Shown piece after piece: positions 1 through 64,000 of a DNA stretch of 64,000 nucleotides. A model generated the notes under the pieces. It was given only the letters and a program-made list of their open reading frames with translations, did no database searches and was not told the DNA's origin. The translations under genes were made by a program, and so were the position numbers. The DNA lies in NCBI GenBank assembly GCA_963681505.1, contig OY811980.1, positions 8,267,955 through 8,331,954 of the forward strand, written 5' to 3'. Within the stretch, counting starts at the first letter, position 1. Every line of letters starts with the position of its first letter. The DNA is from Eunapius fragilis. Its lineage: Eukaryota; Porifera; Demospongiae; Spongillida; Spongillidae.

Positions 1-261
1 CAGTGGGGTATGTTTTATAGGAAGGACTGGGGAGGAGTTTTGGTTGCTAAGTGGGTGTGGTTAAGACAGCACAAGAAGTGAAGCATAACTGCGTAATTTG
101 GAAAGCAGTAGAGAAGATGCCTTGAAGACAATAACCTTGGAAACAGTAGAATAACCTTGGAAACAGTAGAGTTGTGAGGGACATGGTTTCTAAATCCTTT
201 TTTGGTTACCTTAGCAACCAATAAATCCTAATTGCCAAGGTGTCCATGTGGTGTGAAGGCT

Positions 262-392
262 CTCAGTTATACAAAGAGGGAGTGAGTGAGGGGGAGGTTA
301 GGAGGGAGTGAGGGGGAGGTTAGGAGGGAGTGAGGGGGAGGTTAGGAGGGGAGGGAGTGAGGAGGTTAGGAGGGGGAGTGAGTGAGGGGAGG
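262..392. repeat. GA-rich minisatellite in SDHB intron
   Basis: Imperfect tandem copies of a gggaggttaggagggagtga-like unit inside the intron before the penultimate SDHB exon. No coding signal. Confidence 0.75.
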
Positions 393-459
393 TCAGCAGT
401 GAGGGATAAGAGTGGCGACTAGCTGAGATGTGTGTATTAGTTTTTGATGCATTAATTAG

Positions 460-708
460 GATGAGATGAAAGCTGAGCGGCTGAACAAGTTGAGTGATCC
501 ATTCTCCGTCTTCCGTTGTCACACAATAATGAACTGTACCAAGTCTTGTCCTAAGGTTAGTCCAAGGGTTTAAGGTTAAGGGGTGTGGTTAAGGTAGAGT
601 TGGTCTTTCTTGAAATTCTGTGGTTAACTTTACATATATCTCACTCAGGGCCTCAATCCAGGCAAAGCTATAGCTGAACTGAAGAAGATGCTTGCTGGAC
701 TGGCTTAG
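460..708 (+). CDS. SDHB: Succinate dehydrogenase iron-sulfur subunit, 3' end (partial)
   Basis: Last two coding exons, 460-555 and 649-708, joined in phase 0 with a GT donor at 556 and AG acceptor at 647-648. They give the C-terminal 51 residues of mitochondrial complex II subunit B. The segment [20 protein letters not shown] holds the last cysteines of the iron-sulfur binding region, and the tail [12 protein letters not shown] matches SDHB. The protein passes electrons from succinate oxidation to ubiquinone at the inner mitochondrial membrane. The upstream exons lie left of the window; 1-459 is intron with GA-rich repeats. The next gene, IPO13, is convergent, with its stop 134 bp away. Confidence 0.93.
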
Positions 709-747
709 TATAGTAGAGCTGTTGCTTAGCAACTATTGCATGTACAT

Positions 748-753
748 AATAAA
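748..753 (+). terminator. Polyadenylation signal of SDHB
   Basis: AATAAA 40 bases after the SDHB stop codon. The signal of the convergent IPO13 gene lies only about 50 bp further on, so the two transcripts probably end within a few bases of each other or overlap. Confidence 0.75.
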
Positions 754-797
754 CTGAAGCCATTTAATCTTGCATAGTTGGTCAAGGAATCAGATGA

Positions 798-803
798 TTT
801 ATT
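798..803 (-). terminator. Polyadenylation signal of IPO13
   Basis: AATAAA on the minus strand (TTTATT on plus), 40 bases downstream of the IPO13 stop codon at 843-845. Confidence 0.75.
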
Positions 804-842
804 AAAAAACAGTATGATACAAACTGTGTAGTGGTGTTTGCT

Positions 843-1248
843 CTATGTGGTCTGTGCAGCATACAAGGTGCCGTGAAACCCTCGACACATCAGAGAGAAC
901 TCTGAGACTTTGTTGCTCAGTTGCTGTCTGTTCCCTCTAGACCTGGGTGGTCATAAATCTGTGAGGGGAGGGGGTGGGGCAGTGGGTGTGGTCAGACCTG
1001 AGAACAGTTGTCTTGAAGTTCTGTTTTTCCACAAGGGAGAGGTTTGTTGAGGGAAAGCCATCCCGAGCCAGTAAGTCCTGATGAGAGGGAAGCACAAAGT
1101 TCTGCAACATGGACACTCTTCACTTCCTACTGTTCAACTGGCCACCCCAGCAATCAACCCCAAACACATACCTCCATACCTCTGCAGATAACAAATTATG
1201 ATAGGAATGGACATCAAGAGATGGTCAACGTCTAACACAACACAACAC

Positions 1249-1319
<71 letters not shown>

Positions 1320-4300
1320 CTCCAGCCATTGTGAGAACAAAGATATGCAGTGTGTGTTCATGGAGTGGAGGATGTCCACAAAGGAGGACAGGTATGAGCG
1401 AGGGGCAGCACCACCTATGGCCCCAAGGACACACTGCACCAGTAGGCAGCCTTGGTCCACTAAGAGCTCTTGCACACTCTCCAATGTGTCCACCAGCGAT
1501 ATCAGCTGACAGAACAGTACTGTAGCTGCCTTCACAGTAGGCTGCTCTGAAGCTTTAAGTGCCACACAGCCTAAGGTATTGTATGTGTGTGTGCATGTGT
1601 ACATTGTGTGTATGTGTGTGTATGTGGTTTGAGTGAAAGGCCTGCTTTTAACAACCAATGGGTTCATATACCTGCCCCCTCCCACTCCCCACACACAATG
1701 CACACCACCAACCTATTTGAAACAGACTGGCTAACGATCCTACCATATTGAGCACCAACGACGGAGAGTATTTCAGTACCTAATGGGAAGTGAACTGAAA
1801 TAGCCACACACACACACACACACACACACACCACATGCACACACACTACATGCACACTCACCACAAGCACACACACATCACACACACATGCACACACACA
1901 CACCACATGCACACACACAACATGCACACACTCACCACAAGCACACACACATCACACACACATGCACACACACACACACCACATGCACACACACAACATG
2001 CACACACTCACCACAAGCACACACACATCACACACACATGCACAAACAACCTACCATGTTCTGATTAAGACAAATAGCTCATTAATGACAGATATTAAAG
2101 TTAATCTACTTCTGATTGGAGGACATTCCTATGTGCACATCAACATGTCATAATGTATTCATAGCAAGGTGGGAAGGCGTGTCCCTGTGTAGGGTGTGTG
2201 TCGTGTAGTGCGAGGCGTTTCCTGTGTTGTTTGAGCTCACATGCCCCATGAATGATGGTCATTAAATTTGAAACCTAGGGCACTTCATTCAAGTGGTGCC
2301 CCTCCCCTTTTCAACATCCACCAACACCCCCTACTTACAGCACACATCAGCTGAAGGTAAGCTTGAAGGAGCTCAGGTACTAGGTAGAAGGCAGAGGGAC
2401 TAACGTCACACACTCCACACGCCTACCACACCACATACCTGACTGAAGGTAAGATAACGCTTGGAAATGTAGTCCTTTCAACATCACATCCAACAGAGGC
2501 AAACATGATGGTTGCTTGTGGAATACTTCTAACAGCTGCAAACAGCAGGATCACAAAAGTAGACAGTATACAGAGATGCACAGAGATATACAAGTGAGGA
2601 TTATGATATGGTAATAGAGCGGACATGAATGTGATGATGATGATGTGTGGGTGTGATGAGGGTATGGTGTGATGATGATGATGTGTGGGTGTGTGATGAT
2701 GATGAGGGTGTGATGATGAGGGTGTGATGATGATGATGTGTGGGTGTGTGATGATGATGAGGGTGTGATGATGAGGGTGTGATGATGATGATGATGAGGG
2801 ATGATGAGAGGGTGGGGGCGGCTAACATTGGAAGCACAGTCCAGAAGGCTGGGGTTGTGCACAGCTGCAAAGCACTGTATGATGAGGTCGACTGTCCCCT
2901 CCAGCAGTGGTGCGTACTGCTCTTGCACTGTACGAACAGCCCTACTCCAGCATGTACAAACACCCTAATTGGAGCACACCAACATGGAAGGACCATTCAT
3001 CATCTCCACTCCCGCTACCTCTACAATGTCTTGATCAACACACCACTTGCTGATCAGGGCTTGAAGGGAGGGCCATACTTGAGCCAACAGAATAACCACC
3101 TGTTGGGGGCGTGGGAATGGGACCAATAGCAAGTGCATGCAAGGCAAAAACCACACCCACCATTACATCATCTTTTACACACACCTACATTCACCCACAT
3201 AAAGATGTAGCTATACCATGATGAACACATCAAGACGCATCACAAACCACGTATGTTTCAACTCCCCTGGACATACTTACACACATACACCTTACACCTG
3301 TACACACATACACCTTACACCTGTACACACATACACCTTACACCTGTACACACATACACCTTATACCTGTACACATACACCTTACACCTGTACACACATA
3401 CACCTTACACCTGTACACACATACACCTTACACCTGTACACACATACACCTTACACCTGTACACACATACACCTTATACCTGTACACATACACCTTACAC
3501 CTGTACACACATACACCTTACACCTGTACACACATACACCTTATACCTGTACACATACACCTTATACCTGTACACACATACACCTTACACCTGTACACTA
3601 TACACCTTACACCTGTACACACATACACCTTACACCTGTACACACATACACCTTACACCTGTACACACATACACCTTACACCTGTACACATACACCTTAC
3701 ACCTGTACACCCTACCACCTTACACCTGTACACAGATAGGGAGCAGTAATTCACAACAGTGCAGAAATGTAAGTCCAAATGGTTAATTAACTACACACAG
3801 ATCCTGAAAACCATCCCCACATTAAGTGTTTGGATACGTGGTTTGAATTCCATGTAGCACCATCACATGATATAACCATCACACACACACACTCACAGGA
3901 TGCTGTTCTCCACATCGTCCCACATCCCACCATCACACACTCACAGGATGCTGTTCTCCACATCATCCCACATCCCACCATCACACACTCACAGGATGCT
4001 GTTCTCCACACCATCCCACATCCCACCATCACACACTCACAGGATGCTGTTCTCCACACCATCCCACATCCCACCATCACACACTCACAGGATGCTGTTC
4101 TCCACACCATCCCACATCCCACCATCACACACTCACAGGATGCTGTTCTCCATTCAGCAAGGTTGGATATATATGATGACAGAAGGCACTTAGAATGAGG
4201 AGTTCCTTCTCCACCATTGGTTTGGAGACATCTGAAGGGTCCTGGTGTGCTAGCTGGTCAAGGCTCCTGACCCTTGACCCCACCAACACCTCGAGGGGGC

Positions 4301-5166
4301 CAGACAGCTCCTTGATGGGCATGGTTGAGAGAACATTGCCAATGGCTGCCACCATGCGGACACAGTCACGGGCCTCCAGCCTCGGATTAGAAAGACTGGA
4401 CTGTTGGAATGGAGACAAGATTGAAAGGGTTAGCAGAATGGGGTTATGGAAACATCCATCCCCAACCACCTTGCCCCTCCCTCTGCCACCACTTTGCCCC
4501 TCCCTCTCCCACCCCTTTGCCCCTCCCTCTCCCACCCCTTTGCCCCTCCCTCTCCCACCCCTTTGCCCCTCCCTCTCCCACCCCTTTGCCCCTCCCTCTC
4601 CCACCCCTTTGCCCCTCCCTCTCCCACCCCTTTGCCCCTCCCTCTCCCACCCCTTTGCCCCTCCCTCTCCCACCCCTTTGCCCCTCCCTCTCCCACCCCT
4701 TTGCCCCTCCCTCTCCCACCCCTTTGCCCCTCCCTCTCCCACCCCTTTGCCATGCAGGATGCAAAATTAAATAGCAATAAATCAATTGCACTCATTGTAA
4801 AAATTAGATACAGGTCTGGTCACATGACATGTCTTAGTTGTCACATGACATGTCTTAGTATGTTAGGTCTGGTCACATGACATGCCTTAGTATGTTTGGT
4901 CACATGACATGCCTTAGTATGTTACATGTAGGTCTGGTCACTGACCTATGCCTTCCACATGCCACACCCCTACATGACCCACCCACCTCACAAGCAGGGA
5001 TGAGCTGCATCATATAAGGGACCAGCTTCTCTGCACACTCTCCACACACATCTCTGAAGGCCAGAGCTGCACTGGGGGCCAGCTCTGGCTGAGTGAGACC
5101 TTGCAGTATGGTGGGGAGGACAGCCTGCAGTAGGTCCATATGCTCCTTAAACCAAGACGAGAGACA

Positions 5167-5244
<78 letters not shown>

Positions 5245-8200
5245 TGTGTGCATGTGTGTGTGTGTGCATGTGTGTGTGCATGTGTGTGTGTGTGGGTGTG
5301 TGTGCATGTATGGTGCATATGATTAACAGGCATAATGCAGGGAGAGCACACGCATACTGTCACAGTTTATGGAAGGTCACTGCATGTAAATTTCACAATT
5401 AACATGTCCTGAAGGGCTGCCTTGAGTGTTCACACACCCCGAACACTCCAACGGATTCAATATAGCATGTGACCTTAGTAAGATCGGGCTAAACCCAACT
5501 TAAGGGGGGGGGGGGGGGTGAGTTGTTGGTAAATTGAACGGATAGCTGAGCAGGGCCATCTGCCAGACAGTGGGAGCAGGGGAGCAGCACAGGGGGGCAG
5601 GGGGGCAGCACAGGGGGGCAGGGGGGCAGGACCTTCTTTACTGATGATTACATGTGGAGACATACCAATGTACCCCCAACCACACCGCCATATAAGAGCT
5701 GACAACATCATTATTAGAGTGTAGCGAATAGATTTCTAATAATGCACACCTTTGAAGGAATCTGACCAAATATTCAAAATATTCCATCACAATTAAGGAA
5801 TTGTGTGACATTCCTTAAATCATACTCTTGGGTGGGGTGGAGGTGGGGGTGTGGAGGTGGGGAGTAGGGGGGTGAGGAGGGGGTGGAGGTGGGGGTGTGG
5901 AGGTGGGGAGTAGGGGGGTGAGGAGGGGGTGGAGGTGGGGGTGTGGAGGTGGGGAGTAGGGGGGTGAGGAGGGGGTGGAGGTGGGGGTGTGGAGGTGGGG
6001 AGTAGGGGGTGAGGAGGGGGTGGAGGTGGGGGTGTGGAGGTAGGGAGTAGGGGGGTGAGGAGGGGGTGGAGGTGAGGGTGTGGAGGTGGGGAGTAGGGGG
6101 TGAGGAGGGGGTGGAGGTGGGGGTGTGGAGGTGGGGAGTAGGGGGGTGAGGAGGGGGTGGAGGTGGGGTGTGGAGGTGGGGAGTAGGGGGGTGAGGAGGG
6201 GGTGGAGGTGGGGGTGTGGAGGTGGGGAGTAGGGGGGTGAGGAGGGGGTGGAGGTGGGGTGTGGAGGTAGGGAGTAGGGGGTGAGGAGGAAGTGGAGGTG
6301 GGGGTGTGGAGGTGGGGGTGTGGAGGTGGGGAGTAGGGGGGTGAGGAGGGGGTGGAGGTGGGGGTGTGGAGGTAGGGAGTAGGGGGGTGAGGAGGGGGTG
6401 GAGGTGGGGGTGTGGAGGTAGGGAGTAGGGGGTGAGGAGGGGGTGGAGGTGGGGGTGTGGAGGTAGGGAGTAGGGGGGTGAGGAGGGGGTGGAGGTGGTT
6501 GGGGATATACCTAAAAAGGACAGAGCCGTCCTGATCAGCAGGGGGTGAGGTGGCATCCTGGGGAAGAGAGCAAGTACACTCTGGAAGAGGTGTGAGCTCT
6601 GCTGGGAGGTAGCCACACCTTGGAGCAAGAAGAGAATGGCCTCCACTGGCTGCAAAGGGAAAGAGCATAGCATATTACACAGCCACACCCACAGCCACAC
6701 CCACAGTATGCTGCCTACTACATAAAGCCCATGAATGCACTCAAACTGAAGTATTAACCATTATTAACCATTATTAAGTATTACCACATTCATATCTCTC
6801 AATGCACACACATTAAAGGTATTAATAGCTTTAACTTTAAGAAGTACAAACACAATAACTAGATGGTATGTGCCAGCAATAGTGGACAGACCAGCTGCCT
6901 ATCAGCACCACTGACCTCAAAGCCTATAAAGGGAGGGACCAGGGGACATTACACAGGGAGGGATACCAGAGGACATTACACAGGGAGGGACCAGGGGACA
7001 TTACACAGGGAGGGACAAGGGGACATTACACAGGGGAGGGCATGATAACAACCCTTTACCCCCCTTACACCCTTTACCCCCCTTACACCTCTTCCTTGTG
7101 TTTATGTACCTATATCATATCATTAAATTGTTTTACTAATTGCATGATACTGGTGATCTTCCCCCCTCCCCCCTCCCCCCTCCCCTTGGTTCTTGGTAAG
7201 ATACAATTATCACATGTTTTGGGAAGTTGAAGCCTCTGAAGGCTTAAGGCATAACCCACAACACTATAATGTGCTGAGGTACAGCATGGTGTTGTGGGAA
7301 CCCCTGATATATGGTGCTGTGGGAACCCCTGATATATGGTGCTGTGGGAACCCCTGATATATGGTGCTATGGGAACCCCTGATATATGGTGCTGTGGGAA
7401 CCCCTGATATATGGTGCTATGGGAACCCCTGATATATGGTGCTGGGGGAACCCCTTATGGGCACTTGGTGTTATAGTAAGCATATTGATTCATTGCTCTC
7501 ACACACACACACACACACAACACTCGTACCTGCCATTGTACGGAGGAGCCAGTCAACAAGGTGTTCATTTGACCAGTAAGATACTGCAGATATTCTGTGT
7601 GCATCACTTGTTGAAGAGAGTCCTGTTTCATGACAAAGTGCCTTTCGTTTAGTACATATGTGTGCATGTGCATGTGTGTGTGCCTTAATAACTAACCCCT
7701 AAATCACATAAGTCCTCTCGGTATTTGACAAAGCTGTCCTTGTCGTCTGCAAAGGTACAAAGGTAATCTCGCCATCAAATAGGAAAGATCAGTCACCATG
7801 GTGACCATGGTGACCCTGGTGACCATGGTGACCCTGGTGACCATGGTGACCCTGGTGGTGTACCATTGGTCCAATTGTTCTCCCAGTCAGAATCTGAAGG
7901 ATACTGTGACTTCTCAGGACACATCTTCCTCACAGGGAGGTAAGTGGTTTGGGCACATATAGTACAACATTAGGAGAACGTCAAAGCCACAAAAAGTACT
8001 GAGAAATCCTCTGAGGTCATGGAGAAACCCTCCCCAAATCCTCTGAGGTCATGGAGAAACCCTCCCCAAATCCTCTGAGGTCATGGAGAAACCCTCCCCA
8101 AATCCTCTGAGGTCATGCAGAACCTCTGACATTGTAAGTACTAACCACCTTAACTAAAAGACTATAATACCTCAATGATGGACAGAAGAACAGGATTGTA

Positions 8201-11171: not shown

Positions 11172-11348
11172 TTGCGCAAATTCAATATTACGCAGAGCAA
11201 TTATTATTTTTTTTACGCGCTCCGTGACGTCACTACCTCCATTCATTTCGCTATAAGGCATACTACTTATGGTGTAAATAGTTGCTGATCGAGTGAACCA
11301 ACGGATTGCAAACTATTTGTGTAAATCGGCAACGCTTGTGACGTCACA
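11172..11348. promoter_or_regulatory. Bidirectional promoter region, IPO13 / PDE4
   Basis: 177 bp separate the chosen IPO13 start (minus) from the first PDE4 ATG (plus), or 87 bp if IPO13 begins at 11261. Contains TGACGTCA-type CRE-like half sites near 11223 and 11340. A shared promoter is inferred from arrangement only. Confidence 0.6.
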
Positions 11349-18427
<7,079 letters not shown>

Positions 18428-18678: not shown

Positions 18679-20913
18679 TCATATGTGATCTCCCACTGTG
18701 GAAATGACAAAGTCCTTCAGAAATGATGTAATGTTGTCTGTGTTGAGATCCAGTCCCAAAAACCTGCTTACCACTGCAGAGCATCTTATAGAAGGGGGTG
18801 TGGAGAGGTAGGGGGAGGGAATGGAATGAAGCATGATGGATTGCTGGGGTGGTTTGAGAGCATACACTTGCAGCTGCCTCTTCGTGTCCGGTTCCCTGAC
18901 CTTTCCTATGGCCTTGTTCTGCCGAATCAACTCAGAAACCTTTTTGAAAGTAAAAGCACACACTGATAATATAGCAAGTGATGGCCACTCGTGACCACGC
19001 CCACTTCTGCTGCCCGTTGGACCATATTTGCAGGAAGCCCTACACCTGCAGCAATGTGACAGGCGTAACTGATATCAGACATGCCAGGGACCAGCTGGTA
19101 GAGAAACACCATCTCCTCTCCATCATGCATCGTGTCCATGGTCTATCCAGGGTATTAAAAGTTCTTAACCCCTGAATAGCCAGCCATGTGCCACACACAC
19201 TCACGAGGTACTCCAAGAGCCCTGAGTCAGGCAAGAGTTTTTGTTTCACGAGACCATGGAAATGGGTGGAAACAAGCACTGAAGGACACTGTGACTCCTG
19301 GGCCAGCCAGTGCCTCAGAGAGGCTGTAAGGAGTGCTAGACCATCAACCTTCAAGTGTGTGTGTGTGTGTGTGTACATGTGTGTGTTACTACCCTGACTG
19401 CTGTAGGATGTATGGGACATACTGTGGCTGTTCCCTTTCCATATTCATCCAATAGAACCAATGATTTCTCCGAGCTCTCTCTCAGAGCTACTGCCACCTG
19501 TGGAGTAGGTAGATAAGCACGCTGCTTAAAAATGGCTTGTCACCTTCGTACTTGATTAAGGTCTATCATGAATGTTGACAATGCCACAGATACAGTCTCC
19601 CTGGTACGAATACGTGTAAATATACGATCCACCATTCCAATTAGTGCCACCTCAGCAGGAACAAAACTACCCAGGTGTGCCATGAACACCAATAGGCCGA
19701 CCTAGAGCAAAGGAAAGGAGGGGAGGAGGAGGAAAGGAAGAGGGGAGGGGGAGGGGAGGGGAGGAAGAGGGGAGGGGGAGGGGAGGAAGAGGGGAGGGGG
19801 AGGGGAGAAAGAGGGTAGGAGGAAGAGGGGAGGGGAGGGGGGGGAAGATAAACTTAAGTGTTAGGCAACGATTGGTCATGGAAAGTTTAACAAGCAATGG
19901 AAGAATGCACATGACAGTTGACAACACACTTGCTTCAGGTAGACACTCTTGCCACTGGCATTTGGGCCTGTCAGGATCTTCATCCTGCCATGTTTGAGGT
20001 CAATGGATGTGTCGTTTGGGACAAAGGTAGTGACACAGAGCTCTTGAAGAGGGTGTCTAGAGGGCAGGGGAGGTGGGGAGGAGGGAGGGGAGGAGAGAAG
20101 TAATGGGGAGGAGGGTGATGACATACAAGGTGCACGTGGTTGCACTGACCTTCCTGCCTTGATGCGTATACCTGGCTCTTCTCGTAATTCAGGCCTTACA
20201 CAATTGTTCTCTCGAGCAAAAAGTGCAAGTGACAGAAGACTGTAGCAATGGTAGCAGCTCTAACCACACCTACTATCCACTTGAACCCTGTCCCCCATAC
20301 CATACCAGTCCAGCTCAGCAGCCAATTCCACTGTGCTCAGGAGTGTGTTGGCCTGTTCCAAAATTACAGCTTGTAGCCTATGCATTATGACTGTCTCACG
20401 ATCTGGGTAAGATGGGTGACTTGTGATGATCTGGGTAAGATGGGTGACTTGTGATGATCTAGGTAAAATGGGTGACTTGTGATGATCTAGGTAAAATGGG
20501 TGACTTGTGATGATCTAGGTAAGATGGGTGACTTGTGATGATCTAGGTAAGATGGGTGTCTTGTGATGATCTAGGTAAGATGGGTGACTTGTGATGATCT
20601 AGGTAAGATGGGTGACTTGTGATGATCTAGGTAAGATGGGTGACTTGTGATGATCTAGGTAAGATGGGTGACTTGTGGTGATGGTTATCACAATGGCACA
20701 GAACATCCATCATACATGTACAAATACACATAAATATATGCACACAACACACACCTGTGATTTCACACTGTGTGTCCCCTAATTGAGCATCCAGTTCCTT
20801 TGTCCTGTCAGTCTTATAGTGAACCATGTTATTCGATAGAAACTGTGGGAGGAAGGAAGAAAGTGATGTGATCACATAGGAGTTCTGATGCACAAACACA
20901 AAACACAAAACAC

Positions 20914-20972
<59 letters not shown>

Positions 20973-23900
20973 ACAAACTCCATCCCAGGCAGTACAAAAT
21001 CTTTCTCATCCTGCATGTGAGGAGCTCTTGGCACAGCCAGAAGGAAGCCAAGCTATGTAATGCAGTGAATAAACAGAGTGGAAGCAAATCACCATGGTTA
21101 CCTGAGGGACATAGATAATGGTGCACTGAGCAATGTCATCAGGTAGCTTAGCCAACTCTTCCTCAGCCACCTGTGTCATCAGGTCAGGTAGTCCATTATA
21201 CAGACGCTTCTCTGGAGTCATGCCAGGAGTGATGTAGGTCATGTGATGGTTGATGTAGGTCATGTGATGGTTGATGTAGGTCATATGACAAAGACTTACT
21301 TTCATCTAGTTCAGAGTCAACATTTGGCTTCACTACAAACCTATTATGAAGAGCTGATTCATCAAAATCTATCTGACAAGATAGGGAGGAGTGTGAAGTG
21401 TGGAGGCGTGATAATGAGAGAGTTATGTATGTACACAATGCATTCTCCAGACCACCAAACCAGTGTGGAATTGGACTTAGGTGATATAGAAGTGTGTATG
21501 CCAGACAGTAAGGACAGCAGGGCAGGTATGGAATTGGGAATTGAAGCAGGTATGGAATTGGGAATTGAAGCAGGTATGGAATTGGGAATTGGAAAGCTGG
21601 TATGGAATTGTGTATTGAACAGCTGGTATGGAATTGGGTATTGGGACAAGGTATGGAATTGGGTATTGGATAGCAGGTATGGAATTGGGTATTAGATATG
21701 GAACTGGGTATTGGGACAAGATATGGAATTGGGTATTGGACAGCAGGTATGGAATTGGGTATAAATTTGAGCTACTCACAATCTGACTGATAAGACTGGC
21801 CATTCTTGGCAGTTCATCTGAGAAGGTTGCTGCTATCTGTGTGAAAGGACACATGAACACAGAGTAGGGTTAGTAAGAAATTAAATACCCGTCTGAAGAT
21901 GGTAATGTTCTCTGGTAGAGACCTACACATATCACCAATGAAGATAGCATTGTACACTGTCTGCAAGTATAGAGGGTGGGGCAGAGGGTGGGGAGGTGGG
22001 GCAGAGGGTGGGAAGGTGGGGCAGAGGGTGGGAAGGTGGGGCAGAGGGTGGGAAGGTGGGAAGGTGGGGCAGAGGGTGGGAAGGTGGGGCAGAGGGTGGG
22101 AAGGTGAGGCAGAGGGTGGGAAGGTGAGGCAGAGGGTGGGAAGGTGGGGCAGAGGGTGGGAAGGTGGGGCAGAGGGTGGGAAGGTGGGGCAGCGGGTGGG
22201 AAGGTGAGGCAGAGGGTGGGAAGGTGAGGCAGAGGGTGGGAAGGTGGGGCAGAGGGTGGGAAGGTGAGGCAGAGGGTGGGAAGGTGAGGCAGAGGGTGGG
22301 GAGGTGAGGCAGAGGGTGGGAAGGTGGGGCAGAGGGTGGGAAGGTGGGGCAGAGGGTGGGAAGGTGGGGCAGAGGGTGGGAAGGTGGGGCAGAGGGTGGG
22401 AAGGTGAGGCAGAGGGTGGGAAGGTGGGGCAGAGGGTGGGAAGGTGGGGCAGAGGGTGGGAAGGTGGGGCAGAGGGTGGGAAGGTGGGGCAGAGGGTGGG
22501 AAGGTGGGGCAGAGGGTGGGAAGGTGGGGCAGAGGGTGGGAAGGTGGGGCAGAGGGTGGGAAGGTGGGGCAGAGGGTGGGAAGGTGGGGCAGAGGGTGGG
22601 AAGGTGGGGCAGAGGGTGGGAAGGTGGGGCAGAGGGTGGGAAGGTGGGGCAGAGGGTGGGAAGGTGGGGCAGAGGGTGGGGAGGTGGGGCAGAGGGTGGG
22701 AAGGTGAAGTAGAGGGTGGGAAGGTGAAGTAGAGGGTGGGAAGGTGAAGTAGAGGGTGGGAAGGTGGGGCAGAGGGTGGGAAGGTGGGGCAGAGGGTGGG
22801 AAGGTGAGGCAGAGGGTGGGAAGGTGAAGTAGAGGGTGGGGCAGAGAGTTCAGTGGGTGGTACCTTGTACAGGGCCTGCCAATCATTGATGGAGCATTGG
22901 GCAGTCTCCATGCGAGTCAATATTCTCTGTGGACCAAAGGCACCATGAAGACCCTCCCACTTCCTCCTACATGGCCTCTCCCACTTCCTCCTACATGGCC
23001 CCTCCCACTTCCTCCTACATGGCCCCTCCCACTTCCTCCTACATGACCCCTCCCACTTCTCCCTTACTGGTATGTTCCTGATGTGTTTAAGACATTCTTG
23101 GAGGCTGTTGGCCAGCTCTGTATTCCTTGGACTGGTCAAAAAGCCAATGGCATCTAATCTCTGTTGAAGTGAGGGCAGGTCCCTCAGTGGCCTCTGGAAC
23201 CAGAGCCTGGGAGTATTGGAACCAGGTTGTGTGTCAGAGCCCTCCCCCTACTCCATGACCAGTACCACCTTAGCATTCTTGTACCCAAAGGAGACTTCGT
23301 CTTATTCATGATGCCTGAAAGTGGGCGGAGCAGGAAATCGATGGGGGAGGGACAGGGATTAGTGTTACCAAACAACGAGAGCCCCTCCTTGGCCCCGCCC
23401 CCTTCCTTGTAGACAGAGGGGTGTGACTCCTTCTGAAATATCTGCAGTGCACTGATGTGTGTGAGTGGTGTGAGGGTGATGTGTGTGGGTGGTATGTGAG
23501 GGTGATGTGTGGGTGGTTATGTGAGGGCGATGTGTGTGGGGTATGTGAGGGTGATGTGTGTGGGTGGTTATGTGAGGGTGATGTGGATGGGTGGTATGTG
23601 AGGGTGATGTGTGTGGGTGGTTATGTGAGGGTGATGTGTGTGGGTGGTATGTGAGGGTGATGTGTGTGGATGGTATGTGAGGGTGTGTGTGGGTGGTTAT
23701 GTGAGGGTGATGTGTGGGTGGTTATGTGAGGGTGATGTGTGGGTGGTTATGTGAGGGTGATGTGTGTGGGTGGTATGTGAGGGTGATGTGTGTGGGTGGT
23801 TATGTGAGGGTGATGTGTGTGGGTGGTTATGTGAGGGTGATGTGTGTGGGTGGTACGTGAGGGTGATGTGTGGCAAACACATGAAATGAGATTACGTATA

Positions 23901-25488: not shown

Positions 25489-38587
<13,099 letters not shown>

Positions 38588-47412: not shown

Positions 47413-47424
47413 TGATCCCATTGG

Positions 47425-52779: not shown

Positions 52780-52813
<34 letters not shown>

Positions 52814-53973: not shown

Positions 53974-54407
53974 CTATGATGTGGCTCAGGCCACGCTGCC
54001 TTGTATATTGTATGTGTTGTGCTGTATATATATATATACATAGTTCATGTTTGATATATTGAGCACATGTATCATCTCGTGTCTGTATTTGAAACACAAA
54101 AGAAAACAAATACCAGAGCAGTGAACAGTAATAATCAGCTATGTGCACCCTAAATGAATGCAAGTCAAAAAAAAGAAACCAAAATAAATAAATAAGGTCC
54201 TATCCTCAAAACATAAGTGCCTCATCTGAAAACTGAAAAAAACAAGAGGCTATTTTGTGGTCTTTCTGCCCAGAGAACCTAGAATAGCTGTGTAAGACAT
54301 GCAGAATCACACGAGGCATGCATAACTGTACGTGCGCCAGCACCTGTGGAAGAGGACATTGGCTAGCTAGCCCAAGCCACAAGAGCATGTCCTGCATCAC
54401 TTACCTC
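53974..54407. other. Convergent intergenic region KDM4 / TNPO1
   Basis: 434 bp between the two stop codons: 3' UTRs only. An (TA)n run lies near 54028-54038 and KDM4 poly(A) signals at 54183-54192. No gene seen. Confidence 0.7.
54183..54192 (+). terminator. Polyadenylation signals of KDM4
   Basis: Two overlapping AATAAA hexamers (54183-54188 and 54187-54192) about 210 bases after the KDM4 stop. Confidence 0.65.
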
Positions 54408-57400
54408 TCACACTTGGTAAGTTGCAGCTAACTTTTCTTTCAAGGCTGGAGGGAACTGACCAGCAAACGCTTTCCAATTTTCTGTTCCAACCTCACCCTT
54501 GAACCCATGCAGGATCTAATAAGGCCAGCAAACTCGTCATATGTCATATTATCCACACGTTGATAACTGACCTTATGAAATGTCTGCCTGAGGTCTTCCT
54601 TGGGACTGGACCAGGAGGCTATGGCATCGCAGAAGGACATGAAGTGTTGCAGTACTCCTGAGGGGTTCAGGCTGATCATTGCACACACGCCTCTAAATGC
54701 CGAGTCCTTCTCTTCATTGTCTCTAATGTTTCTAAGCGTGCTGCACCACTGGTATATAAATGTTTGCAGGAATGGTGCAACGTCTTCAGGACACACTAGC
54801 CCGAGGCGTCCAATGGTAATTGCAGTGTTCTCCAGCAATGTCTTTGGAGTTCCAGGACGATTTATGTTTTCAATGAGCTGATGGAGCACCAGTGACAGGT
54901 AAGCTTTCATCCCACTGCCTAGCTGCAACGACAGCTCTCCTATGGCCCATGTGGCATTGTTGCAAACTGAGATGAACTCGGGGTTGAGGTTTCTACCCAA
55001 TACTGGAAGGAAGTCAACTAAGGGGGAGAGAAGGGAGCAGAGGAGAGAGAAGGGAGCAGAGGAGAGAGAAGGGAGCGGAGGAGAGAGAAGGGAGCAAGCA
55101 TACATTGGTTCACACTTAATCTCCTGCCAAGTACAAGAACACTTACCAACGCAAGGTTGCACGTGGTTGAAGCAGGCCTTTGTGAGGTCCCCAAGCAAGG
55201 CAAAGGAGCTCTGCCTCACCTCAGGCATGGAGTCCTGCATACACTGGAACAGCAGTGTGAGGATATTGCTCTGTGCCACCAAGGGCTCAATATGGGTGCC
55301 CAGACCCTCAGCAAGACCCGACAGAAGATCAAGGGCAACGATCATGAACTCTTTGTCGGGAGGTACATAATGCTCAGGGTTAGATACGGCTGCTTGGGTT
55401 TGATGCAACGTTTGTTGTATCAAGAAGACACACCGTTGGAACACCGGTCCACAATAAGGAAGGAAGCCAGACTGAAGAGCAGTAGCCACTGACGACAGGC
55501 ACTGATGGCAGCAATAGGTACAATGGAATCAAAAGAACACCAATGACAAGGCTACAATGAAAAAGGTGCAGTACTCACTTCTAGAAGAGGAAAGAGGTCT
55601 TTGTCTTCATTTTTCAGTACACTCCACTTCTCAATCAATGGAGGCATCAGGAGACTTATGTACTCCTATCAAAGTTTGGTGATGAAGCCATGAAGTAATG
55701 TGTTATAAGCATGCAACAGGTCAAGTGGTATGTGTGTGTGGGCGGGTGAAGAGGAGGATGATTCAGCCCAAGAAGCATGTAAACAAAAGTACCTCCTTGT
55801 TCAAGTGATTTCCTACTGAGTCAGCAAGTGTACCAATTGCATCATACAGGATGAGAAGGTTTTTAGCCTGGTATTGCTTGAATGCAATCATCAACACTTG
55901 CAGTATACCACCTAAGTAAGGCACCAGCTCTGTACATGCCTCCTCTTCCAACGTAGCAAAGGCACTACAGGTGAGGGGGTGGGAGGGGAGGAAGACATGA
56001 GGGTGGGAGATGAGGGTGGGAGGGGAGGAAGAGATGAGGGTGGGGAGGGAGGAAGAGATGAGGGTGGGGAGGGAGGAAGAGATGAGGGTGGGGAGGGAGG
56101 AAGAGATGAGGGTGGGAGGGGAGGAAGAGATGAGGGTGGGAGGGGAGGAAGAGATGAGGGTGGGAGGGGAGGAAGAGATGAGAATGGGAGGGGAGGAAGA
56201 GATGAGAATGGGAGGGGAGGAAGAGATGAGGGTGGGAGGGAGGAAGAGATGAGGGTGGAGGGGAGGAAGAGATGAGGGTGGGGAGGGGAGGAAGATATGA
56301 GGGGAACTTTAGTTCACACTGGTAAGTGTCCATACCTGCACGCTGCCTCTTGCACACGCTTGTTTGGATCCAGGATTCTTCCCAGAAGCTGCACAGATTT
56401 AAAGGAACAACAGCACACCTGTAATATCTCCCTTCATGCTGTGTGTACAGCCAACCTCAGTCATAAGCTTCTGTAGGTAATGCTCGTGAGGCTGGCCCAC
56501 TATCCAGTGAGCATAGCGACTGAGGGACCAGCACGTGATGGACCTGACCAGGGCCTTCGAGTCAGCCAGGCAAGATATGAGAAAGGGTACTAGCTCTGGC
56601 AGGTGTTGCACCATACCATCCATACAGCCCTCTGATACTGCTCCCAGGGCAAGGATTGCTGCCTCCTTGACCAGCCAATCAGACGAGAACAAGTTCTGCT
56701 TGAGTAGTGGCAGGAGCACAGGTAGTAGGGTGTGGTGGAAGACGTTTGAGAGAACATCCAGAGCAGCCGCTGAGCACTTGCGAAGGTTCCAGTCTGATAG
56801 GGCTTCCTTCCTCAGCTCGTCCTCCTCGTCTGAATCGCTGTCTTCCCCGTCCCCAGTCCCTCCTGCCTCCGGTTGTCCCTGCTGGTCGGCTACATGTGTC
56901 TTGACCTTATGAAACCTTGGTCTGATGTCAGAGTCTCTATCTGGTACATGTTGGTCCACTATGTCAGCCTGTGCAAGGTGGTACCACACCATTACATACA
57001 AAGACACACACACACACACCACGCACACACCACACGCGCACACACACCTTGAGCAGAACAATATCGATCTCTGAATAATGCATGCCATTAAGAAGCACCG
57101 GGATAAGCCTGAAGGAAAGAACATTCACATTTGCAGTGACATCTTCAAGTCTCTCCAGCAATGGGCACAACATGTGTACACAATGAGTAAACCGACCGAT
57201 CCAAATATGGCACCAGGGCATCAACACAGATGGATTGTTCTGCCAGTGTTAGCCAAAATTCGCAGGCCTCCAGAGCCACTACATCATTGGAATCTTGTGT
57301 GTGCACAAGCATGTACTGGGGTGGGAGGGGGGGAGGAGGTCATATTAAACACACCAAAGGGGGAAGGGCCCATCATACCTCCACTATGGAATGCATGTGA

Positions 57401-58523
57401 GGGATGAGATCACTAGACCGCACCTCCAGGAGCATCACCAAGGCTCTACACACATTCTTACGGACCTCAGTGTCGGCATCGCCTGCTACAGCAAACAGGG
57501 CCTTTTGGGAACAAAGAAAAGCACATCAAGTGAAAGCACACACTGTGGAGTGTGGTGGAGTGAAATGGTATGTGAAGTAATATGCACAGTTATCTTAGGA
57601 GTTGATTAACAGTTGGGGGATGGGGGGGGGGGTGGTGAGATAATGATGGAAGAGGTCTACACACACCTGGATAAAGTGGCCCATGTTGTCCACTAGTGCT
57701 GAAGGTTGGGACATGATGAACTGGTTCACGCAGGCTATGGCATGTGACCTGCTCGTAAAACACATGCCAATTCACACACAGCAAATGTTTAACCCTTCCA
57801 TATCTCCACCTTATGGATGGACTGTTGTGGTTGAAGAAGTGCAGGAACTTGGGAATAAGGACGTTCAGCGGTCCGTTGAGAGCGTTGGACTCCAACTGGT
57901 CCGAGCAGTCTTCACATATTTTGTGCAGCGTGCTAAATGCCCCCTGCACGCAACGAGATGGTATCACGTGCCGCCCCACCAAAAATAAAAGTCCACTAAC
58001 CTCGGCTGCTTCGGCGCTGTTGCTATCAATCAACCCACACAGCGTAGGTAGCAGTTCGGGCCACTGGACAATGTCCCCGCGCATGGCTATCGTGCTGATA
58101 AGGGTACCCGCGGTGGCCCTAATTAGAGCCGACGAGTCGGCCACTGCGTGCATGGCCTCCTGTTTGATAAACGTCTTGATCTCTCTGGGAAAACTGGCGT
58201 AATACATCTTCACATTGTTCTTCAGGATTAGACCAGCGATGGACCGCGTTGGTTCGTCCTCACGTTTCATCTTTGTGAACACGAAGATGAGGTAGTTGTT
58301 GAAGTCGGGGTACTGGTTTAGAGCCTCTAACTTCTGCACATTGTGAGAACGAAGAAGGGGCAAAATAAACAACTAATCTACCCTCCTTTTTACCCGCACT
58401 TCTTCCCTTCTCTCCTACCTGCTCCACTACTCGCTGTGTAGCCGTATCTGGGTTCTGGCTCTCCCTCAGCAGTTGAACAATCTGGGACAACCCATTCGGG
58501 TCCGGTTGCCACGAAAATGCCAT
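54408..58523 (-). CDS. TNPO1: Transportin-1 (karyopherin-beta2)
   Basis: Fourteen exons: 58523-58419, 58333-58001, 57943-57810, 57748-57667, 57501-57379, 57315-57197, 57108-57048, 56968-56456, 56388-56336, 55964-55793, 55665-55579, 55501-55147, 55017-54572, 54515-54408; 896 aa (human 898). Match is continuous: [19 protein letters not shown], the acidic H8 loop ([11 protein letters not shown]), [48 protein letters not shown]-repeat importin for PY-NLS cargo such as hnRNP A1, released by RanGTP through the H8 loop. Divergent from SPAG16. Some introns carry pyrimidine-rich minisatellites just before the acceptor. Confidence 0.96.
55019..55100. repeat. Purine-rich repeat before a TNPO1 acceptor
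   Basis: Four copies of gagagaagggagcagag-like units. On the transcribed strand they form the C/T tract of the acceptor of exon 55017-54572. Confidence 0.85.
55975..56297. repeat. 23-bp minisatellite before a TNPO1 acceptor
   Basis: About fourteen copies of gatgagggtgggaggggagg plus aaga. On the transcribed strand this is a C/T-rich tract leading to the acceptor of exon 55964-55793. Confidence 0.92.
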
Positions 58524-58651
58524 CGCTCCGCCGTAAGATATCGCTACAAAAACAGCTGGGCCATAGCAAAATCACATGTGCAACTCCGCATACCTAATTT
58601 GCGGAATGATATCGTCGCGTGATCGTCTCCCTGGCAACTGCAAACGGGACC
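58524..58651. promoter_or_regulatory. Bidirectional promoter region, TNPO1 / SPAG16
   Basis: 128 bp between divergent start codons of a housekeeping importin and an axonemal gene. Shared promoter inferred from arrangement. Confidence 0.55.
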
Positions 58652-61600
58652 ATGGAAGAAACATACTATTTGCACGGTTTGTTGCACAAATTGCACGCCT
58701 AGCGTCTCATGATTAATCTTGCACAGACGAATACGTGGACGTAGAAAGTGAAGGAGGCTTTGCTTATGAAGAAGTGGCTGTTGATAATGTATCCATTTCC
58801 TCTGGTGAGACCTCATAACATTGACAAGTTGCATTGCTTCACTACCAGAGAATTCTACACGCAGGTGATGAAGATCTTGACACTGCACTTCATAACCTTC
58901 GTGTAGCCAAACAGCCTAGTACAATAGAGAAGGTATGGTATAACCTTGCTGATCCCTCATCAGGTATATGTCATTAGGTGTCTCAGGTTTCCTTGGAGCC
59001 AGCAAGCCAGGTAATGTCATTTTGTTGTTTTCCCATTTAATTTTGCATGCGCTCTAATTAAAGCACCCAGAGGTAGTGGAGGACTTTGTCAGGAACTTCC
59101 TTGTGCGCATGGGGCTACACAGAACCTTGGAGACATTCCAGACAGAGTGGTGAGTTATCTCACATGACTACAGGCCAAACACTAGCCGAACTTCTGCAGG
59201 TATGAACTGCTGCAGAGAGGCAGTTTGGGCTCACCCCATATGCAACAGCTGCCAGATGCATATTCCCAGTAAGATAGTTGAGAGGCCATAATGTGTTGAA
59301 CTTTGTTCAATTCTGTGTAGAAACCGACAGCTGGAAAGCAAAGTGCAAGAACTGCAGTCACAAATGCTCAGCTTTAAAGAGGCAGCAAGGTGGGCATGAA
59401 TTGGAGTTGTGCATATTTTTACGGTAACATGGGTTGATCACCTGCAGGATAGCCAAGGAGAAGTATGTAAGCTTGAAGAAGGAATGTGACTACCATCGCA
59501 TGCATCACAGGAGAGTCCTTCAGGAGAAGAACAAGCTAATGGTAGATATTAAGAAGTGAGCACTTGTAGTGTGCGTGCACACTGCTCCAAGGCCTCCCTC
59601 CTAACACATCCTACATGTGCGCAAAGACTGCAGCATCATATCAGCTCCTACGACCCGGTACTGAAGGCACTGAGGAATAAGTATGAGGTAATGTTGTAGG
59701 CTGTGTGCCACCTTCCATCATCCCCTCACATCCTCACACCTCCTCCCTCTCACTCTTGCAGGTGGTAACCAAGGAGAAGATGCTGGCATGCATGGAAAGA
59801 GACAGAGCTGTATCTGAAGTGAGCTGTCTGCAGACAACCCTCCACTCCCTCCAACCATCCTCGGCACATGATGGAACACATGGTACACACCCATCACCCG
59901 TGACTCCCATTGCCTTAGCATCTCCACCAGGTACCAAAAATGTTGCTGGCGGTGATGTGAAGGCTACTGAATGTGAGGCAATGCAGAGCGTAATGAAGCT
60001 ACCAGACGACCCAAGCAATCCTTATCTCTTTGCCAAGTTACCAGAATGTGCACACCTCACTAGAACTGGAGGCTTCCAGCTGACAAGCCACTTCCAAGCA
60101 CATGAATATGCCGTGAGCAAGTAAGGACGAAGCATAAATATCCTTAACCTCACACACACACACACACATACACTCACTTTCAGTGTATGCATGCATCCAG
60201 AGAAGGATGTAATGGTCACTACCAGTGATGATCACACCTGGAAGATGTGGGCATTAGAGGGGTAAGGTCATTTTCCCCTCCTACTCGTATCGGGTTAATG
60301 CCAGCTCTGACAACTCTTATCTTCTGTCCTCAGAGGGGACCTTCTCATGACAGGGGAGGGGCACAGTGATTGGATTGGAAGAGCAACCTTCCACCCCAAG
60401 TAGGCCTTCTGGTATGGCAGGAGGCTGCATGTAAATACCTTCTCCTCATCCCCACCAGTGGTAAGATGCTGGCCACCTGTTCAGGGGACGGCACCCTCAA
60501 GATATGGGACTTCGGGAAAGCGTGCTGTTCCGCTACCCTGAGCGACCACCACCCGCAGCCAGGTGGGAGGGGCACGAGTTAGTGGGAGGGGCTGCGTGAC
60601 ATGTCCTCTTGTGTGCAGTGTGGGGGTGTGTCTGGCACTGGAGTGGACAGCTCTTGGTGTCAGGGTCCATGGACCACTGTTGCAAGCTGTGGGATGTTGA
60701 GAGGTGTGTAGAATGCCTGCCCCCCCCCCCCCCCCCATGCAAAAGTCACGTGACCAGCATGTGACCTCCCAGCGCTCGCTGCTACCTCACCCTGCGGGGG
60801 CACTCACAGGCAGTGAACGCTGTGCAGTTCCTGCCCTACAGCTCAACACTGTTCAGCTGCTCACAAGACAAGACCATCTCAATGTGGGATGCCAGAAGTG
60901 TAAGTCCAACCCTCTCTCCTCCTTTCCCCTCCCTCCTTCATTTACGCGTTCTTTTAGGGACTGTGTGTGCAGAACATGTGTGCACACCAACACTCCTGTA
61001 ATGATGTCACTAGCAATGCTCAGGTGGGCAAGCCGATTCACGCTCACAGCCCAGTGGACTTCACACCTCTGGTCCTCACCCTCACACCTCTGGTCCTCAC
61101 CCTCATACCTCTGGTCCTCACCCTCACACCTCTGGTCCTCACCCTCATACCTCTGGTCCTCACCCTCATACCTCTGGTCCTCACCCTCCACCCTCACCCT
61201 CAAACTTCTGGTCCTCACCCTCCACCCTCACACCTCTGGTCCTCACTCTCCACCCTCACACCTGCAGGGAACACTTTTGTTTTCAGCAGACTGCTTTGGC
61301 AATGTGATATGTTGGGATGTCCGTAAGGCATCTATTTCAAGGCAATGGCAGCTGGGTCCTTCTGGTGTTAATGCCCTGGCAGTGGACCCTGCTTGTGGGT
61401 GATGTGCCCACCATCCTCCACATCACTCCCATCATTCCATCTCTCACACAGGTACGGTTTTGGCCTGTGCCAGTAGCAATGGGTCAGTGATACTGATAGA
61501 CCAGCATACGGCCAAGGTCAGTGACCCATATAGGATGCACTGGCTGGTCAAATGTGTCCCACCCCCCTCCCCCAGGAGTGGGCACTAAAAGGACACGAAG

Positions 61601-61686
61601 ACTATGTGCTGAGCGTGTGCTACACTGCTCTGGCAGACTCTTTAGTGTCGGGGGACTCGGCAGGTCATGTTATTGTGTGGCAATAG
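58652..61686 (+). CDS. SPAG16: Sperm-associated antigen 16 / PF20, axonemal central-pair WD40 protein
   Basis: Nineteen exons: 58652-58676, 58727-58804, 58865-58932, 58978-59010, 59064-59149, 59200-59268, 59321-59389, 59448-59555, 59627-59687, 59762-60120, 60184-60261, 60334-60399, 60459-60562, 60619-60703, 60773-60899, 60958-61023, 61268-61394, 61452-61516, 61576-61686; 594 aa. The N-terminal half has a LisH-like segment (DFVRNFLVRMGLHRTLETFQ) and coiled coil (HHRRVLQEKNKLM). The C-terminal half has seven WD40 repeats (DDHTWKMW, DGTLKIWD, DHCCKLWDVE, DKTISMWDA, FGNVICWDV, and AGHVIVWQ at the end). PF20 bridges the central-pair microtubules and is needed for ciliary motility, so the organism has motile cilia. 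Junction 61394/61452 is the least certain. Confidence 0.93.
61060..61265. repeat. 22-bp minisatellite in SPAG16 intron
   Basis: About nine copies of cctctggtcctcaccctcac plus ac/at, ending at the acceptor of exon 61268-61394 and supplying its pyrimidine tract. Confidence 0.9.
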
Positions 61687-61718
61687 TACAAGCCATCAAG
61701 ATGTCTGGTGGTAACTGG

Positions 61719-62613
61719 TCATACATCGAGGGTGGTGGACACTGTACTGGTGCACAGTCTTGAGAACAGTTTTGTCATAAAGATGAATCCTGTTGTACCG
61801 CCTGGCACGTAGCTAATCAGAAACCTGTACGATTTAAGGTGTCAGGATTTGACACACAGGAGTGGGTGGGGCTTACCAAAGTAGGGCCAGCACTTGGGCT
61901 ACAGCGCAGGGAATGGTTAGAATTGTACTGTGTACCTGCACGAGAACATGATATAAGGCACAGACGAGGGGCACAGGTACGTATTAAGAACTCACGCACC
62001 ACAAGAGCACAATAAAGGGTAGCAAGCATGGAGATGATGTAGGCAGCAGTGAATGGTAGTCTTGATAGGGACAGAAGATGTTTGAAGTGCTCCCATGGAC
62101 CCCACAGAAATGAGAAACTATGACATTAAAGACAATACTTAAAGTCGTATGTTAAGTTAAAACTTATAAAAGCAAGGCAGTAAGGCCTACCTCCCCAAGC
62201 AAGGCAGTAAGGCCTGCCTCCCCAAGCAAGGCAGTAAGGCCTACCTCCCCAAGCAAGGCAGTAAGGCCTACCTCCCCAAGCTGAAGAGGCTTCCGAGGGT
62301 AAAGAGGACAGCAAACTTTCGCGATTTTACAATCAGTACAGGAGTAAGCAGAAACGCCTAAGGAAGGAAAGGTATAAATTCGATGCTTTGTACATGTATT
62401 CGCACCATGATAAAACATATTGCTCCGAACGCCAAGCAAAGGAAGAACCCAATGATCCTTTCCTTTTTGCTCTGCGAGTAAGAAATATAGCCACTCATTA
62501 CTTTCAATCTTCACTAAGTGCAGGCGGGTTACCAAGCTAAGGGCGTCGTCCTTCTCCTTGCTCCATAGCTTGTTCAAGGCGCCCGTTGCCCCAGAACTTC
62601 GATCACCAGCCAT
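61719..62613 (-). CDS. SFT2D: SFT2-domain vesicle transport protein
   Basis: Six exons: 62613-62533, 62471-62406, 62357-62272, 62117-62000, 61935-61877, 61824-61719; 171 aa. Four hydrophobic segments (IIGFFLCLAFGAICFIM, KFAVLFTLGSLFSLGSFSFL, AAYIISMLATLYCALV, VAQVLALLWFLISYVPGG) and the conserved FTLGSLFSLGS...WGPWEH block identify the SFT2/GOT1-related family. It acts in retrograde traffic from endosomes to Golgi. The donor of exon 62357-62272 is repeated four more times in a 27-bp array. Convergent with SPAG16 (32 bp between stops), divergent from EIF2B3 (47 bp between starts). Confidence 0.92.
62165..62279. repeat. 27-bp repeat duplicating the SFT2 exon-3 donor
   Basis: Four units of gcaaggcagtaaggcctacc plus tccccaa. 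On the minus strand each holds CTTGGGGAG followed by GTAGGC, i.e. the end of exon 62357-62272 and its donor. Only the first donor keeps the frame; the next reads AGG TAG. Confidence 0.93.
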
Positions 62614-62660
62614 GCAGAATACGCCCCCTCGCTCATAATTCTAATCGATGCACAGTTGCG
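62614..62660. promoter_or_regulatory. 47-bp bidirectional promoter region, SFT2 / EIF2B3
   Basis: Only 47 bp lie between the two start codons, so both transcripts must start within or beside this segment and have very short 5' UTRs or overlap. Confidence 0.55.
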
Positions 62661-63931
62661 ATGGAACTGTGTCCTGTCATTCTGGCCGCAGGACGCGGGT
62701 CTAGAATGTACCCTCTCACAGAAAGTTGTCCAAAAGCTCTACTGCCCGTCGGTAATGTGCCACTGGTGTGGTACCCAGTACATTGGCTTGAGAAGAATGG
62801 CTACAACAGTAAGCTGAACACGTGGTCTTATGCGGGTAATAAGCTATGTTCAACCTTGTGCAGAAGCGACAGTTGTAGTTAGTGAGTCTTCATCACAGCA
62901 GATCAATGAAGCATTATCTGAACTGTGTACAGCAAATTCCTCCAAAATATCACTACAATTTGAGGAAATCCCTGACAATGAAGACTGGGGCACAGCTGAT
63001 ACCCTCAGACACCTCAAAGTCAAGGTTTGAGTCAAGTATCACTAATAAAGTAATACAGTGAGGTATGTTGGGACATGTTTGGCTTTTGTTCTCAGGGAGA
63101 CTTGCTGGTCATTACTTGTGACTTGGTGGCCACCACTGCACTGCATCGGCTCACTGATTCCCACCATACCAATAATTCCACACTTACACTGCTTCTGGTT
63201 CATCCTTCTCAGGATGAAGAAGATCCATCAAAGAAGAAGCTAGCTGCCACAGGTTAGTGATAGCACATGTGCCGGTAACTCCCTCATCTATAAATATTTT
63301 TATAGAGCGTGACATTATAGGACTGGATGACCAGTCGCATCTTGTGTACTTTGTAGCTGGGGCAGACCTTGATGAAGGTCTGCCAGTAAGCAAGTCACTT
63401 CTCCACAGGCAAGAGCTAACTGTTACTCTTGGAGCCAGCTAATGATAACATATTGCTTTGGTACTCAGGCATCCACACATCAAATTCACCTCGCAGCTTG
63501 TCGATGCCCATGTTTACCTCATGGATAGATGGATTTTGGATGACTTCCTGCACGTCAAGAGCAAAGCTGTGTCATCAGTGAAGAGAGAGCTGATCCCTCA
63601 GTTAGTGAGGCAGCAGAATCACTCACCATCAATTGCCTCTACCACTAATCTAGATAATTCCAACAAGCAACAAGGTTTAGTGGTTTAAAAAAAATTATTT
63701 TAACAATTTAGTTTGTCTCCTGAATGGCTGCCATTTCCCTAAGAGCCCCATTGTACTGTTGATGCACTGGAGCAGATGGCATTACAACGTTCATCCTTCG
63801 CTGGGATTGATGGAGGGAGCAAAAATTTTGTAGGGCAGCAGCTCCGCTGCAATGCAGTGGTAGTGCCCCTGGATGGAGGGCTGTGCACACGTGTCAACAG
63901 CCTCCAGCAATACATCACTATCAATAGAATG
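62661..63931 (+). CDS. EIF2B3: Translation initiation factor eIF2B subunit gamma, 5' part (partial)
   Basis: Six exons seen: 62661-62808, 62864-63024, 63096-63252, 63306-63408, 63469-63674, 63744-63931, about 321 residues; the gene continues past the window. The N-terminal nucleotidyltransferase-like domain is clear: CPVILAAGRGSRMYPLTESC, PKALLPVGNVPLVWYP, NEDWGTADTLRHL, DLLVITCDLV, SQLVDAHVYLMDRWILDDF, SVKRELIPQLVRQQ. Part of the eIF2B exchange factor that reloads eIF2 with GTP. The intron after 63408 has a GC donor (CACAG|GCAAGA); phase requires it. From 63932 on, read-through and splicing to 63962 or 63977 are all open, so the next junction is unresolved. Confidence 0.92.
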
Positions 63932-64000
63932 GTAAGGGTAAGGTGTAAACATGACCTCCAGCTGAACCAACCATGCGACAGATGTACCAGTATGCTGACC

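Follow-up and report, generated by a model that had tools for sequence, protein, structure and literature searches.

Do the splice sites of the sponge Eunapius fragilis give rise to tandem repeats more often than other intronic sequence? The question is raised by a window of 64,000 bp, the whole stretch of DNA presented above (positions 8,267,955 to 8,331,954 of contig OY811980.1, C10:8267955-8331954 in our numbering). There, a first-pass annotation noticed repeat arrays that contain or adjoin splice junctions in the introns of IPO13 (importin-13), PDE4, MSH5, SFT2 and other genes, and judged them more frequent than random placement would predict. We found that this judgement depends on the null model: it holds against uniform placement of arrays inside introns, and it fails for minisatellites once their units are allowed to straddle junctions. 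What stands out instead is an asymmetry, which is a modest lead: minisatellites span donors about as often as expected and acceptors less often. Neutral tandem duplication in short introns, followed by a splicing filter that acts on one side only, probably accounts for this pattern.

The genome comprises 218.9 Mb in 24 contigs. As a stand-in for a genome-wide distance test, we analyzed 304 kb (0.14% of the genome), i.e., the window and 240 kb beyond it (200 kb of contig C1, of which 5,000 bases are masked, and 40 kb of C12). Splice sites were predicted, rather than taken from transcripts, by a purpose-built two-strand gene finder trained on all 304 kb. Its training gave clear splice motifs (printed for the first version), and it returned 33 genes and 327 introns, with a median length of 129 bp for all introns and of 76 bp for those devoid of arrays. 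Arrays were called with Tandem Repeats Finder (TRF), which gave 115 rows in the window. We excluded periods above 200, arrays extending at least 40 bp past a junction, and introns with a flanking exon scoring below 3, which reduced 106 arrays to 92. In the following, minisatellites are arrays with a period of at least 7 bp, and short-period runs are those with a period of at most 6 bp (1-4 bp in the sample).

Under a uniform null, where each array is placed within the part of its intron that it does not fill and straddling of junctions is forbidden, 27 of the 92 arrays have a splice site within 10 bp, for 15.2 expected. The excess is present in the window (15/50, 9.5 expected) and elsewhere (12/42, 5.8 expected). 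In other words, the comparison with shuffled intronic positions proposed at the outset came out favorably both in the window and in the 240 kb beyond. Nearness persists with a single array per intron (73 introns, z -3.44) and in gene predictions made without masking the arrays (26/86 near, 13.5 expected). As a control, real arrays were placed at random positions of array-free introns and analyzed with the same pipeline (893 evaluated of 981 inserted). Their mean u was 0.492 and the ratio of near to expected arrays 0.99; the observed arrays differ from this control both in the window (p = 0.007) and elsewhere (p = 0.0008). The excess of nearness is real under the uniform in-intron null. Yet, 12 of the 27 near arrays overlap a junction, a placement that this null bars. 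When arrays are binned by their nearest gap, the observed and expected numbers are 7 and 8.7 at 0-5 bp, 8 and 6.5 at 6-10 bp, 13 and 11.6 at 11-20 bp, 15 and 16.1 at 21-40 bp, 14 and 17.7 at 41-80 bp, and 23 and 31.4 above 80 bp. As array-free introns are so short, nearness by itself says little.

The second null represents neutral seeding and drops a unit anywhere overlapping the collapsed intron. Under this straddling null there is no excess of junction-spanning minisatellites, with 12 of 77 against 18.4 expected. These counts, and the analysis of 32 settings given below, include SFT2, which the gene finder missed and which we added by hand since the earlier annotation had named it; this slightly tilts the results to donors. 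Without SFT2, 12 of 92 arrays of all periods span a junction (18.0 expected), as do 11 of 76 minisatellites (17.7 expected). If splice sites were preferred seeds, spanning should exceed the neutral expectation; it did not, and the direction remained the same over 32 settings with varied masking, exon filter, array quality and overlap (all with periods of at least 7 bp). The minisatellites that do not span a junction are not significantly non-uniform (mean u 0.452, n = 65, Kolmogorov-Smirnov (KS) p = 0.30).

Donors and acceptors contribute unequally to these counts. Under the straddling null (n = 77), donor-spanning minisatellites number 9 for 9.2 expected, and acceptor-spanning ones 3 for 9.2 expected (P = 0.011). 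When at least 3 bp of exon are required, the numbers are 6 for 8.4 at donors and 2 for 8.4 at acceptors (P = 0.006). Across the 32 settings, the count of donor-spanning arrays did not differ significantly from expectation in any, and that of acceptor-spanning arrays was below it in every one (P from 0.0016 to 0.14). The composition of the arrays differs as well: the pyrimidine fraction of the sense strand is 0.706 for arrays near acceptors (n = 17) and 0.447 for those near donors (n = 26; p = 4e-5), a contrast found in the window (p = 0.0025) and elsewhere (p = 0.0036). A literature search found neither a report of such arrays in sponges nor one of a donor/acceptor asymmetry, which is not proof of absence.

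Short-period runs are a clear exception to the neutral pattern. Seven of the 16 lie within 10 bp of a splice site, for 1.8 expected, and one spans a junction, for 0.2 expected. Three of the seven are TG/GT runs, all at donors; the other four are CA runs, two of them at acceptors and two at donors. Because GT runs can serve as donors, and CA runs as acceptors when a G follows, composition would account for most of them; it does not account for the two CA runs at donors. As a separate observation, three dinucleotide runs (26835-26966 in the window, R1 58732-58760 in L007 and R2 16881-16956 in L023) lie 5-10 bp 3' of an ordinary donor that they do not supply, and their nearness is not explained by the composition of the site.

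The arrays pointed out in the window were all recovered by TRF, and their positions relative to the predicted introns are as described (Table 1). The statement that four of them contain the junction itself stands for IPO13 and SFT2, whose repeated copies hold the functional junction with 16 and 10 bp of exon; in PDE4 and MSH5, the array extends beyond the junction by 1 and 3 bp, respectively. Each IPO13 copy carries the exon end (TGGAGAACAGCATCCT) and the donor GTGAGT, which makes six identical consecutive copies, functional donor included. The SFT2 array repeats the exon end and the donor GAG^GTAGGC four times (the caret marks the junction), the third time with GC (GCAGGC). The PDE4 array has GTGAGC 53 times, again counting the functional donor, and the MSH5 array at 20400-20682 has about ten copies with acceptor-like ends TTACC(C/T)AG^ATC. 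The IPO13 protein alignment passes through the exon-proximal copy with no insertion at the junction, and the PDE4B alignment has none at its array junction either.

How might such a distribution come about? If minisatellites arise by tandem duplication at roughly random spots of introns as short as these, units of about 20-40 bp are bound to abut or overlap splice sites frequently. A duplication crossing the donor would change neither the exon nor the exon-proximal donor, its decoys all lying downstream. With its first donor intact, it would be tolerated at an approximately neutral rate. With a duplication crossing the acceptor, the decoys would precede the true acceptor and be encountered first, and the resulting array would therefore tend to be removed. 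Acceptor-side arrays would then persist mainly if pyrimidine-rich. The exon-proximal donor is presumably the one in use, and the IPO13 and PDE4 protein alignments and the SFT2 family match are consistent with this. Placements, counts against the neutral expectation and composition are direct observations; selection as the cause of the acceptor deficit is what we infer from them. A broader proposal, that intron growth is polarized, with minisatellites growing freely from donors (where the exon-proximal donor wins) and being purged from acceptors, is tentative and at present somewhat doubtful. If true, donor-copying arrays would be a one-way route from short to long introns, and the spliceosome would have to disregard the series of identical decoy donors in each intron. 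Should the asymmetry hold genome-wide, natural rows such as the one in the PDE4 intron would be ready tests of first-donor choice. For similar studies, repeats may seem to crowd at splice sites largely for geometric reasons when introns are short, and the null must permit straddling.

Several results weigh against neutral duplication with a one-sided filter. The acceptor deficit amounts to 3 arrays against 9.2, and in 8 of the 32 settings its P exceeds 0.05. A pyrimidine gradient of the same sign, though weaker, exists in array-free introns (0.610 at the 3' end vs 0.504, n = 108), and the seed sequence, instead of selection, may be responsible for part of the composition effect. Errors of TRF or of the gene finder make 8.1% of the randomly inserted control arrays seem to span a junction, and part of the observed spanning may be false. 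Non-spanning minisatellites lean slightly towards splice sites over the 32 settings (mean u 0.42-0.50, z -0.05 to -1.83), a lean that is neither abolished nor significant, and all non-spanning arrays together lean more visibly (mean u 0.421, n = 80, z -2.44, KS p = 0.040). What geometry accounts for least well is nearness in long introns: where at least 400 bp lie outside the array, 8 of 30 arrays are near for 1.0 expected, and the corresponding control has 6 of 89 for 2.8 expected.

It is in these long introns that another explanation finds its strongest argument, namely that the GT/AG-rich splice consensus is a mutational hot spot seeding slippage, with arrays born there more often. The overall nearness under the uniform null, obtained with a pipeline close to unbiased, and the clear nearness of short-period runs also agree with a hot spot. 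We nevertheless find it unlikely: junction-spanning minisatellites are not in excess when straddling is permitted, and donor-like sites are not enriched on the sense strand of intron arrays, be it in all of them (29/93 sense vs 39/93 antisense) or in those far from a site (18/67 vs 29/67). Octamers in triple tandem were also counted genome-wide, with 544 matches to AGGTGAGT vs 904 to its reverse, 67 to AGGTAAGT vs 52, and 447 to the dinucleotide-matched permutation AGTAAGGT vs 169 to its own reversal (a fourth pattern was the dinucleotide-matched AGTGAGGT; the counts cover the first three). They are weak evidence, the matches listed being clustered from single arrays, and show no clear direction. 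The suggestion that slippage favors GT/AG-rich sites is thus unsupported for minisatellites. Could nearness rather be an artefact of gene prediction and of TRF edges? Predicted splice sites, TRF edges that overshoot by a few bases, and the apparent spanning and the surplus in the longest introns of the control all point this way. Such an artefact is improbable, however, as the control is close to unbiased overall, predictions without masking put arrays equally near, and four gene models of the window match solved homologues.

The least probable explanation, in our opinion, is that redundant splice sites are selected, additional copies safeguarding or tuning splicing, as the first-pass annotation had suggested alongside tolerance. 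The units of the three named donor arrays of the window (48, 12 and 27 bp) are all multiples of three, the PDE4 array remains open on read-through for 171 nt, and 7 of 93 intron arrays have at least three donor-like sites that match the real donor of the intron in strength. On the other hand, of the seven donor arrays examined, five run into a stop on read-through without reaching another donor copy. The stop comes 9 nt into the read-through for IPO13, 1 nt for SFT2, and 1, 1 and 44 nt for three arrays that lie beyond the window. The next donor copy of the LamG/EGF array lies 19 nt away and is out of frame, which leaves PDE4 alone open. Acceptor copies are moreover depleted, not enriched. There is no good evidence for splice sites seeding minisatellites or for selected redundancy. 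Frame-preserving units were considered separately as a candidate and rejected: 5 of 12 spanning units have a length divisible by three (6 of 13 when SFT2 is counted), which is not clearly more than one third.

We compared these arrays with three known systems. In human segmentally duplicated genes, internal tandem repeats occur at exon-intron boundaries (PMC2812944). As here, these repeats overlap the boundary and multiply splice sites. The human repeats vary between paralogues, have RNA-supported changes in transcripts, and can create introns, whereas the introns of E. fragilis retain an acceptor outside the array and are known from the sequence of one assembly. The arrays described here belong to this kind of boundary repeat, which is already known. 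Intron gain by tandem duplication of AGGT-containing segments, with a potato RdRp case across an intron-exon boundary and, in fission yeast, multiple AGGT duplicates of 24 bp (PMC4974935), also involves tandem copies of a segment bearing a splice site. In that model, the duplicate supplies both sites of the new intron. Here, the donor arrays are separated from the acceptors by 52 bp in SFT2, 131 bp in PDE4 and 786 bp in IPO13; none of the three has donor and acceptor inside the duplicated segment, and hence they are not intron gains of the AGGT type. Finally, the CeRep25B minisatellite of Caenorhabditis elegans, found near alternative exons (PMC4039745), is similar in linking intronic minisatellites to splicing decisions. 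It is a single dispersed family, whereas the unit here differs from intron to intron.

Arrays with AGGT or a donor consensus in their units were also noticed at two further loci of the genome. At C7:9316805-9377720, several arrays over about 60 kb share a unit of about 39 bp of type AGGTAAGTCTACAAACACCTCCCCTGTCCCCTTACATGA, with one AGGT per unit; this local family is a candidate for mini-introns and worth checking. At C5:10590963-10592680, an array with a 38-bp unit starting AGGTGAGTGCTTGC extends over at least 1.7 kb and has a donor consensus in nearly all copies.

Table 1. Repeat arrays at splice sites of the window (distances are to the site named; carets mark junctions).
Array	Position	Strand	Unit and copies	Relation to splice site
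IPO13 intron array	3886..4152	-	48 bp x5.6	TRF; exon 4137-4400
CA run (sense)	5170..5304	-		1 bp from IPO13 acceptor ACACACAG^GTT
18-bp array	7795..7857	-	18 bp	6 bp from IPO13 donor
PDE4 intron array	13144..14218	+	12 bp x89	starts at donor GCT^GTGAGC; 1 exon bp
MSH5 intron array	20400..20682	-	28 bp x10	3 exon bp at acceptor
TG run (sense)	20891..20975	-		constitutes MSH5 donor GTG^GTGTGT; 4-bp overlap with donor
20-bp array	21975..22840	-	20 bp x43	fills MSH5 intron; 23 bp to donor, 14 bp to acceptor
24-bp array	22952..23059	-	24 bp	MSH5 intron 22927-23067; 8 bp to donor, 25 bp to acceptor
LamG/EGF donor array	30561..30601	-	19 bp x2.2	spans donor TAG^GTGGGT
19-bp array, pyrimidine-rich in sense	55026..55096	-	19 bp	8 bp from transportin-1 acceptor; transportin-1 alignment
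24-bp array, pyrimidine-rich in sense	56007..56303	-	24 bp	transportin-1 intron; 42 bp to acceptor by TRF
Pyrimidine-rich arrays	61061..61275	+	21/28 bp	up to acceptor of ATG16-like WD40 gene
SFT2 intron array	62170..62281	-	27 bp x4.1	hand model, intron 62118-62271

Some of these arrays call for comment. The degenerate start of the array at 56007-56303 extends, by eye, to about 10 bp from the acceptor. Within 61061-61275, the array that TRF places at 61195-61275 overlaps the acceptor by 8 bp; these arrays are not in the filtered statistics, as one flanking exon scores 1. The array at 22952-23059 was left out as well, the gene finder having called it an exon; at least one intron array has therefore escaped the counts. 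It is in frame and free of stops, and annotation pipelines could likewise miscall it as coding.

The genes of the window are importin-13, a PDE4-type phosphodiesterase, MSH5, a large LamG/EGF protein, transportin-1, an ATG16-like WD40 protein, and SFT2. Together with the compact introns, this set of genes fits an animal and possibly a sponge. The transportin-1 model matches its solved homologue nearly end to end (1392 bits), and the models of PDE4 and IPO13 match solved PDE4B (347 bits) and solved IPO13 (267 bits). The conserved core of the MSH5 model matches bacterial MutS (134 bits) along with the MutS_V domain, the SFT2 model, with exons built by hand, matches the Got1/Sft2 family (110 bits), and the ATG16-like gene has WD40 matches. 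The names LamG, ATG16 and MSH5 (rather than MutS) are those we presume from our reading of the sequence, not tool matches. Apart from the two errors given above, the gene finder fused MSH5 with the LamG/EGF gene and put part of the EGF gene on the opposite strand. In its first version, about 5% of the predicted donors were GC instead of GT, in the window and the other sampled stretches.

The window is unusually rich in arrays, which cover 23.9% of it, for 8.1% of the C1 sample and 7.0% of the C12 sample; their share of predicted intron bases is 33.0%, 9.0% and 7.0%, respectively. Arrays also occur in its coding sequence. Two in-frame arrays on the minus strand (28053-29328 and 32737-35457), with a 114-bp unit in 11.2 and 23.9 copies and matches of 94 and 93%, code for near-identical EGF domains, each array being confined to one predicted exon of the LamG/EGF gene.

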